A stretch of 64,000 nt of DNA from Haliclystus octoradiatus (lineage: Eukaryota > Cnidaria > Staurozoa > Stauromedusae > Haliclystidae), in the NCBI GenBank assembly GCA_916610825.1, contig OU744449.1:27126228-27190227 (forward strand), written 5' to 3'. A program made the position numbers and the translations under genes. Of this stretch, positions 3,201 through 6,200 are shown in pieces (positions within the stretch are counted from its first letter, which is position 1; every line of letters starts with the position of its first letter). The notes below the pieces were generated by a model. That model worked only from the letters and a program-made list of their open reading frames with translations, did not search any database and had not been told where the DNA came from.

Positions 3201-6200
3201 TAATAATAATAATAATAATAATAATAATAATAATAATAATAATAATAATAATAATAATAATAATAATAATAATAATAATAATAATAATAATAATAATAAT
3301 AATAATAATAATAATAATAATAATAATAATAATAATAATAATAATAATAATAATAATAATAATAATAATAATAATAATAATAATAATAATAATAATAATA
3401 ATAATAATAATAATAATAATAATAATAATAATAATAATAATAATAATAATAATAATAATAATAATAATAATAATAATAATAATAATAATAATAATAAATA
3501 ATAATAATAATAATAATAATAATAATAATAATAATAATAATAATAATAATAATAATAATAATAATAATAATAATAATAATAATAATAATAATAATAATAA
3601 TAATAATAATAATAATAATAATAATAATAATAATAATAATAATAATAATAATAATGGAGTCAAAGACTACGCATTCATTTTCTGTAACTTAAAGTTTCTC
3701 GCTTTATGCGATCATCAGACAGATACTACAGATACTACAGATACATAGTATCTGTCTGATGATCGCATAAAGCGAGAAACTTTAAGTTACAGAAAATGAA
3801 TGCGTAGTCTTTGACTCCATTATTATTATTATTCACGCTCTGTCAAATGACATCGAGCACTATATCAACTGCTGTTAGATACCATATCATCATTATTATT
3901 ATTACATTATAATAATAATAATAATAATAATAATAATAATAATAATAATAATAATAATAATAATAATAATAATAATAATAATAATAATAATAATAATAAT
4001 AATAATAATAATAATAATAATAATAATAATAATAATAATAATAATAATAATAATAATAATAATAATAATAATAATAATAATAATAATAATAATAATAATA
4101 ATAATAATAATAATAATAATAATAATAATAATGATAATAATAATAATAATAATAATAATCTTCGAAAGTTTGTCGAAGATTCAAAAACTTTGTCGCACGC
4201 ATCGTAGCAAATTTGTATAATAACATCAGTCGAACATACAGGGGTCTCAACCTTGAAAAATACAGTTGCAAATCATTCAAAGCATTACTGAGAGCAATCA
4301 AAGTGGAGGAATACATCCGAGAGTAAAATAAATATTAGCTAACCACAACTCATGAGATGGTATTTATAAGAAAATTGTAATATGTATTGCCTTGAATCTT
4401 CGTAACATGCATGTTCTAATATCCAACGTTGTTTTCCAAAAAATTTAAGTTTAATGTTTTGATAATGTTAATCAGATGTTACTTTAGATGACCATGTCAA
4501 TATAATTAAATTTTTAAAAAAATCAAAGTTAGTTCTAATTCAGCCAGGAAAAATCAAACCAGCAACGTGGGTAAGATATTACAGTTGAAATATTGACGTT
4601 TCTATTGAAATATACCTTCATTCCAATATGTATAACCTTGATATATCTTTAATCCCAAAACTAGAATCACGTATATTAGAATCCATACTACGAGTACAGG
4701 ATTACGCAGAAACAGTGGAAACTTTTCTGGATCATTCTGCTCTACTGCAGGTCGAGAAAGTCTCCTACATTAAACAAAAATAACAACACGTCAGCTACTT
4801 CATCGTAAATATCGAATTTTGAGGTTGGTCTCCTAAGGTCGGACCCATCAGTGACCTCATCGTAGCTCATCAGGCATTGTACCTGAAATCCCGCTAGTGA
4901 AGTGGATAGATTATTCTCAATATTATGCAAAGCCGAACTCAATAATTGGTTTACAAAATACTTTTGCGTGATTACAATTACAATTTATAAGATCAACGAC
5001 GAGTTGAACAACGACGACTAATTTCAGTTAATAAAACAACATATATTTCTCTAGGTCTTGCTCTCATCAAGACTACACACACTCTGACCATACGATACGC
5101 ACGTGGGCGTTTACATTCTATACACACAAATGAGGCTAGCCTCAATTTATCATGAGTGTTTCAATTTACAGTTCATACATATAATTATTCGATTACACTT
5201 CCCCCAGATTTACAAATCTTCATCCAAGTAATAATCGTTTAGCCACGCTGGAACACGACGAATACGAGGACCAACTTCAACTGCTTCGTCAATACGATTT
5301 TCACTGTCGCTATCATTATCACTATTGGTTTCATTATCCGTATCATTATCATATGATGACTCACTGTCATCTGTTAATAATAAGTCATCATTGTTTGCTT
5401 CATTTGGATTGTCATTCAAGTTATCATTGCTTGGTGAATCACTTATACGATTACGTAAATGGCTTACATGCCTTAATGAAAGATGTCCCTTAATTAGTAC
5501 CCTAACTTTCTGCACAGACACTTGTTGTAGAACAATACCTGGAAGCCACTTTTCCGTACATCTGACATTGTCTTTTGGCTTTACCCACACCTTGTCATTG
5601 GGAAAGTAAGATTTGATAAACTCTTCATCTGATGTAACTGGTTCAATAATACGCAACCGAGGTTTGTAACCAAATTTTTGCCATGCCGGCGGATCCGTCA
5701 TCCGTTCAGACGGTACGTTGTTATACCAATAAATAGCATCTAATATAGAACACTTGCTTCTAGCGGCTATAGTTTTGATTGTTCTATGGTTGCGTTCTAC
5801 TATCCCTGTCCCTTGAGGTCGATACACAGCTCTCGGAATCAATTTGACATTCCACAATTTACATAACATTTTAATCTTTCTTGAGGCAAATGTACTATAG
5901 TTATCTAATAATATTTCGCTCGGTGGTCCATGTTCTGAAAATATTGACTTCAATTGTGCGTAAATTTGATTCTCTCCCTCGTTAGCAATACGACGCCAGA
6001 TTGTAAAGCGGCTCGGACCACAGTCAATTATACTCAAGTATTTTTCATTTTCATACTTCGTCACATCTATGCATAATCTTTCCCAATTTTTCTCAACACC
6101 GAGTTTACCTTTTTCCCATCTTACTGGCGATGGGTCAATTGACTTGCAATCTTGACAGTTTGTCACAACATTCTGAACATCTTCTGGTGATGGACGTAAT

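Follow-up and report, generated by a model that had tools for sequence, protein, structure and literature searches.

Palindromic hammerhead insertions in the staurozoan Haliclystus octoradiatus as probable two-ended, two-RNA products of Penelope-like elements

Penelope-like elements (PLEs) are known to carry inverted, head-to-head copies of their pLTRs with palindromic junctions and a tail on one side only, and the available text on the Adineta vaga Penelope elements leaves open how the inverted copy is acquired (PMC3846280). In the Anolis PLE PAc (Poseidon; Frangieh et al.), both strands of the target are cut and then extended by the protein, which has a preference for ATT and begins synthesis at two internal sites on its RNA; the tail is the sequence between these sites (PMC11167929). 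A one-sided tail in a genome is the trace that two start sites would leave. PLE hammerheads have been portrayed as minimal motifs that may act as dimers, and their role has been called unknown (PMC7761336). Metazoan retrozymes are a second point of comparison, as they share with the copies studied here a type I hammerhead, a short noncoding form and target duplications (PMC7229834). In the axolotl hammerhead HHR_Amex2, stem II has a U-U mismatch at its base (PMC7229834), as it does in our family B. However, retrozymes form direct tandem arrays and are expressed as circular RNA (PMC7229834), whereas the copies here are head-to-head single units.

Here we describe a head-to-head palindrome with a hammerhead core in each arm from the stalked jellyfish Haliclystus octoradiatus. 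Our preferred reading, which we consider probable, is that it is a short insertion made by PLE machinery from the 5′ end (pLTR) of a PLE RNA, by priming at both target ends on two RNA molecules. So read, it would resemble PAc in having a hammerhead at the pLTR, extension of both strands, two start sites, a preference for ATT and uncleaved RNA as the main template (PMC11167929). The PAc data are in vitro, however, and the available part of that paper reports neither a palindromic product nor a second template (PMC11167929). No RNA-seq reads were seen at the cut site in that work (PMC11167929), whereas some insertions here do end there. The Penelope elements of Adineta vaga are low in copy number and have open reading frames (ORFs), while H. 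octoradiatus has 1,959 exact cores and ORF-less palindromes (PMC3846280). In addition, the centers of the palindromes here are unique to each copy, some palindromes join two families, and the available text on Adineta vaga makes no mention of a hammerhead (PMC3846280).

The window, that is, the whole stretch of DNA that was analyzed, is 64 kb long, and its features are collected in Table 1. The palindrome at 3656 to 3818 is perfect. With the AAT/ATT tract included, its arms measure 88 nt each (3641 to 3728 and 3746 to 3833), are 100% complementary and flank a 17-nt spacer; without the tract they are the 73-bp arms of the table. A reading made earlier from the letters of this stretch had arrived at the same coordinates, the same 73-bp arm length and a predicted cut after 3788, all of which were borne out. 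It had described the palindromic form as attached to a microsatellite; we take this microsatellite to be the insertion target and not a part of the element. The window copy lies within it and has no ORF, and other copies of the family are inserted in (ATT)n, (AAT)n or (TA)n. In the plus-strand core, stem I (UCUGU/ACAGA) is followed by CUGAUGA, stem II (UCGC-AUAAA-GCGA), GAAA and a short stem III (ACU-UUA-AGU). The family-B copy further along the window has two cores of its own (minus strand, 50523 to 50564; plus strand, 50583 to 50624) and a flanking repeat of only 7 bp. Elsewhere in the window, hairpins at 58626 to 58712 and 48576 to 48669 match the mir-203 and mir-BART19 models far below gathering and are probably palindromic repeats, not microRNAs, and a weak match to the GIR1 ribozyme at 10324 to 10488 (22 bits, E-value 0.68, gathering 100) is likely due to chance.

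Table 1. Palindromic copies and associated features in the 64-kb window (positions counted from its first nucleotide)
Feature	Position	Strand	Remarks
(AAT)n microsatellite	3200..3655 (starts before 3200)		Read as insertion target; the last ~15 bases (3641-3655) are also the outer end of the left arm
Left arm	3656..3728	-	Antisense to the element RNA; runs inward from the (AUU)n start site as far as the RNA 5′ end, with no tail beyond the arm
Hammerhead core, minus strand	3681..3723	-	Predicted cut after 3686; 60.9 bits with a model built from the window copy's family and nine others
Center, 17 bp	3729..3745		Not shared with other copies; interpreted as a junction between two cDNA ends, with filler templated nearby
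Right arm	3746..3818	+	Sense copy starting at the RNA 5′ end
Hammerhead core, plus strand	3751..3793	+	Predicted cut after U3788
(ATT)5	3819..3833	+	Putative proximal reverse-transcription start site; the left arm starts at its complement
Tail CACGCTCTGTCA...GAGCACT...TTACATTATA	3834..3911	+	Conserved, on one side only; putative distal start site at the tail 3′ end
Microsatellite, far side of the insertion	3912..4159		
Second palindromic copy, family B	50490..50718	+	Left arm from ~50490, tail to ~50718
Decayed family-B-like copy	19319..19480	+	Sense arm with a remnant of the tail; a left arm was not seen; family-model E-value 2.4e-4
Decayed palindromic copy	1066..1225	-	Tail motif on the left, by eye; weak family-model match, E-value 0.59-0.66

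The palindrome is a repeat and not a chance arrangement, because a genome search (40 of 900 candidates scored) found further loci of its family. The earlier suspicion of dispersed copies across the genome was therefore right: 40 loci of the family were fetched, the window copy included, and in the 262-Mb genome the exact pattern of the core has 1,959 occurrences (996 + 963, both arms of a palindrome being counted), against 0 for a reversed control. For families A and B, most of the loci came from palindrome queries. The least biased sample consists of 40 loci on contig C1 that were taken by the sense core alone; 14 of these have a full antisense arm upstream, 5 a partial one and 2 an antisense tail (by pattern), and the remaining 19 have none within 325 bp, some of them being, by eye, long PLE copies. 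Palindromes are common but not universal among these loci. Two loci (L110 and L111) are identical over the stretch compared, as are L035 and L036 except for masked bases.

Is the hammerhead real? The definition of a hammerhead core is CUGANGA...GAAA with a cleavable H17, and the arms have both the conserved core and a cleavable H17. The Rfam search proposed in the sequence-only reading bore this out only in part. Over the whole window, at an E-value of 1 or below, it returned five matches, all subthreshold and none of them a hammerhead; the right arm alone matched RF02275 (Hammerhead_HH9) with 17.3 bits against a gathering threshold of 52 (E-value 0.033), in an alignment covering model positions 14 to 59 (46 of 77) in which no nonstandard pair was marked. 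Nor does energy folding lend the hammerhead support, as the 88-nt arm has a minimum-energy fold other than the hammerhead, and one that shuffled sequences equal (z 0.17). Covariation does support the predicted structure. When the three helices were compared across ten arm families from the fetched loci, changes on both sides were seen in 7 of 12 pairs, with the core kept and stems I and II covarying. The covariation score was 0.319, a value reached by 0 of 500 shuffles; shuffles gave 0.186 and slid partners 0.035 to 0.116. Further pair types, in contrast, are no more numerous than in shuffles, 451 of 500 of which reach the count, and ten related rows are a small sample; stem III shows no compensatory change in any of the ten families, and in 8 of them the basal pair of stem II is mismatched. 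Both arms thus hold the core of a type I hammerhead for which self-cleavage is predicted, and the type I hammerhead with a short stem III that had been proposed for the window copy is borne out. At another locus (L003), CTGATGA...GAAAC words recur at 1795, 2055, 2315 and 2748, three of them spaced 260 bp; as hammerheads they were rejected by eye, stem I not fitting.

Which element do the arms belong to? One longer copy (L074, family A) has a window-type arm and tail after pieces of an ORF, and its other end is an antisense arm that continues into antisense 3′ sequence. The kinship with Penelope terminal repeats, and a parent sharing the arms, had been anticipated before this copy was found. 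The locus L070/L071 is a 2,525-bp tandem with a ribozyme in every unit and a 734-amino-acid ORF; within L070-L071 (C1:11263000-11279999), near-identical 2,525-bp PLE units lie three on the minus and then two on the plus strand, head-to-head. This ORF, taken from L071, has at least 2,228 relatives among 7,994 scored candidates. It matched no Pfam family at an E-value of 0.001 or below and no PDB sequence, and 19 aligned relatives matched no Pfam reverse transcriptase model. A telomerase-like reverse transcriptase and a GIY-YIG domain were found on relatives only. The predicted fold of one relative, P0002 (67% identical; mean pLDDT 82.5), has telomerase TERT as its first PDB match (E-value 5e-7), with low TM-scores (0.30/0.40) and with other reverse transcriptases and polymerases close behind, and another, P0003 from Solemya velum, has a GIY-YIG domain (E-value 1e-5). 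The ORF family also has YRDDG and NHPP motifs, which we take to be PLE-like. The PLE identity thus rests on relatives, a predicted fold and these motifs, and we take the carrier to be a PLE with an endonuclease. The PLE hallmarks of a pLTR with an inverted copy, a one-sided tail and a hammerhead in the pLTR are all present, and a short target duplication in an AT-rich target was found for family B and its relatives; within the microsatellite that holds the window copy, a duplication would not stand out.

The window copy had been suggested to be a distinct nonautonomous ribozyme element, and its head-to-head arrangement had not been recognized. Such an element may exist but need not be assumed, as the longer PLE copy shares arm and tail, and the arrangement has its precedent in the head-to-head pLTR copies of PLEs (PMC3846280). 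cDNA synthesis begun at the 5′ pLTR copy of the start site on the PLE RNA can account for the short form. A separate nonautonomous gene would then not be required, because a start at the 5′ copy of the site would yield just such a short element. The retrozyme explanation, by contrast, gives the short form a gene of its own, whose RNA would cleave itself, become circular and be copied by a PLE or LINE enzyme. The type I hammerhead, the short size and the 1,959 cores would suit it, and metazoan retrozymes have been described (PMC7229834). However, the fetched loci contain no direct tandem hammerhead arrays besides the PLE units, and the copies run from a fixed RNA 5′ end through an uncut ribozyme to the tail and are not permuted monomers. 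Same-family neighbors within 400 bp are, moreover, overwhelmingly head-to-head (103, versus 4 in the same direction and 1 tail-to-tail, in loci that are partly redundant and mostly came from palindrome queries), and we regard a retrozyme as quite improbable. Different-family neighbors, counted in all orders (35 +-, 7 --, 6 ++ and 6 -+), are mostly separate elements. At one locus (L063, 884 to 1556) a 169-bp tandem of 4 copies contains half an element plus flanking sequence; it is a local duplication, not a retrozyme array.

The position of the tail is the most regular feature of the palindromes. From 93 head-to-head pairs, 14 short-armed ones were dropped, and in all 79 full-arm palindromes that were kept the tail lies outside exactly one arm (72 by pattern and 7 by eye), with no case of both or neither. 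In families outside microsatellites, 21 of 27 copies have a word of at least 9 bp common to both flanks, versus 13% of 1,042 swapped pairs; this count omitted copies whose tail the pattern missed, and five of the 21 are TA-rich runs. Clear target duplications are seen at L043, L045, L048, L059, L061, L063, L067, L079, L087 and L100, and in family B the flanking words vary in length from 7 to 18 bp. A foldback DNA transposon (MITE) with an incidental hammerhead-like sequence would also be a short palindrome with many dispersed copies and target duplications. Yet such a transposon should have inverted ends and a fixed duplication, and here the tail is outside one arm only and the flanking words are variable. 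Unique centers, one-armed copies and longer copies with a reverse-transcriptase-type ORF speak against it as well, and we find this explanation scarcely credible.

The centers were compared after omitting 4 of the 40 family-A loci (L029, L030, L034 and L035), keeping the 6 A2 loci separate and merging 29 family-B loci to 20. They are distinct in 54 of 56 copies (A1, 29 of 30; A2, 6 of 6; B, 19 of 20). A master palindrome copied as a whole would pass on its center, and the distinct centers therefore speak against one. In 27 of 36 A/A2 centers, mostly short ones being omitted, 52% of the bases fall in 6-mers of the arms, versus 16% after simple base shuffles, as might be expected of templated filler. 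Could the centers instead be younger than the insertions? Long perfect palindromes are unstable in DNA, the filler resembles end joining, and old palindromes might have been cut and repaired at their centers after insertion. However, the innermost base of A1 is reached by the left arm in 29 of 30 copies and by the right arm in 27 of 30, with no graded asymmetric loss in A1 (in family B the arm end varies by up to 9 bases), and such repair leaves the mixed arms and the arms ending at the ribozyme cut, both described below, unexplained. We hold it to be very improbable.

The evidence that bears most directly on the number of templates comes from palindromes whose two arms differ. Six differing pairs were listed, of which three were kept as mixed; L055 and L073 were dropped by eye as one family and as a deletion, respectively, and L020, with arms ~270 bp apart, was left out. 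The three mixed palindromes are of unequal strength. In L100, the left arm matches family N (91.6%) and the right arm family H (100%), and the insertion has complete ends and a 12-bp target duplication, ATCACATATTTA; a word search aligns only the hammerhead between the arms, and in a gapped alignment 58 of 67 bases are equal. In L012, an arm of family G is joined to one of F, with a local alignment of just 14 bases; a target duplication was looked for and none was visible. L026 combines arms of subfamilies A and S, which are closely related but differ in their ends, each arm having the end of its own subfamily; 58 of 63 aligned bases are equal. Two further insertions (L107 and L077) join an antisense tail to a sense body with a small or zero overlap (~10 bp in L077), and L110 has a sense arm without a left arm and, by eye, a 13- to 15-bp target duplication.

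We propose the following course of events for the two-ended insertion. Transcription would start ~10 to 15 nt upstream of the hammerhead, as the arm ends suggest, and the ribozyme would come to lie at the extreme 5′ end of the RNA. The element's enzyme would cut both strands of an AT-rich target, of which the duplications are the visible product. One target end would prime cDNA at the distal site in the tail and the other at the proximal (AUU)n site, on separate RNA molecules, a step to which the one-sided tails and the mixed arms point. Each cDNA would be extended as far as its RNA template reached, which is the 5′ end or, in cleaved RNA, the hammerhead cut, and these are positions at which arms are seen to end. 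The 3′ ends of both cDNAs would then be joined, directly or through templated filler, into a head-to-head palindrome with a center of its own, as observed copy by copy, and an early stop of one cDNA would give an asymmetric insertion. The scheme recalls twin priming in L1, where the second target end primes internally on the RNA and a 5′ inversion results. In L1, however, the inverted and direct parts normally do not overlap, whereas here the two often extend as far as the RNA 5′ end, which makes them mirror images.

Other routes could also produce a palindrome: one cDNA might fold back and copy itself, or the reverse transcriptase, on reaching the RNA 5′ end, might jump to an antisense transcript. 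For the rotifer Penelope, a proposal of self-priming on an antisense template has been made (PMC3846280). Head-to-head order, perfect arms and variants matching in both arms (also in L117) agree with these routes, to which together we give a small but real chance. Plain snap-back, though, cannot produce arms of two families (L100 and L012, and more weakly L026), nor an antisense tail on a barely overlapping sense body (L107 and L077), and the antisense-jump version requires antisense RNAs that end at the sense 5′ end and at the proximal start site. Mixed arms and antisense-tail joins follow from priming of each target end on its own RNA and not from the fold-back of one cDNA. The variants within families are less decisive: those common to both arms of a copy number 7 versus 39 one-sided ones in A1, 11 versus 52 in B and 0 versus 1 in A2, and the shared ones fit two RNAs of one source and also fit the copying of one arm. 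Microhomology at the proximal junction, examined in 12 hand-entered copies, is suggestive only.

Where do the arms end? In families A and B, most palindrome arms end a short way (a few bases) 5′ of the hammerhead, and in several long copies this position adjoins TTTTTCAT or a similar sequence; we infer that an arm end near TTTTTCAT may mark the transcription start. A minority of arms end at the predicted cut, in eight loci (L029, L088, L101, L104, L109, L116, L117 and L118), five of them from the fetched loci and three from one family-A pattern. Both arms end at the cut in L104, with a center of zero, and in L029, with a center of 5 bp; one arm does so in L101 and one in L109, whose second arm is doubtful, and L088 is joined via ACAGT/ACTGT, the aligner having scored its arm end at -2. 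L116, L117 and L118 are full family-A palindromes with a one-sided tail and, by eye, no hammerhead between the arms. These are the 3 of 8 places of a family-A short-center pattern that end at the cut on both sides within one base, the pattern itself requiring arms that reach the cut. In the tally of arm ends, nine fall exactly at the cut, versus at most 3 at any other position from -11 to +16. Among the nine, L010 and L037 fit the cut position less cleanly and are doubtful, as is the second arm of L109. Outlying peaks at -13 (8 arms), 18 (13 arms) and 21 (7 arms) are taken as alignment artifacts, the first as a mismatch near the query end and the other two as cross-family partial matches. A stop caused by RNA structure would be expected outside stem I, several bases off, and the ends at the cut thus point to cleaved RNA. 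Cleaved RNA seems to have been copied sometimes, and uncleaved RNA usually.

A bolder version of the two-RNA proposal gives the ribozyme a role in pairing. PLEs might use two RNA templates, one per target strand, which the hammerhead would help to pair as a dimeric hammerhead, cleavage setting the minority of cDNA ends; this we advance tentatively and consider unlikely to hold in full. In 9 of the 10 families A to J the strand of stem III shows self-complementarity that reaches four bases in from both ends, G-U pairs being allowed (ACUAUAGU, ACUUUAAGU and ACUUCAAGU are examples). Such self-complementarity is expected of hammerheads capable of dimerizing, and a hairpin stem III needs part of it too.

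Inverted PLE repeats with a one-sided tail are already known. Among the titles and beginnings of abstracts listed by our literature searches on PLEs, hammerheads and retrozymes, we found no report of mixed-template palindromes or of cut-site footprints.

These minimal insertions would be a natural record of PLE retrotransposition, in which two start sites (one per side), two templates, the 5′ ends of the RNA and some ends at the ribozyme cut can be read. They make the two-template, two-ended model and cleavage in the animal directly testable: one can tally where arms end across genomes, and a two-RNA assay could use an enzyme that already exists. If the pairing proposal is true, the hammerhead would be an RNA dimerization device of two-ended retrotransposition.
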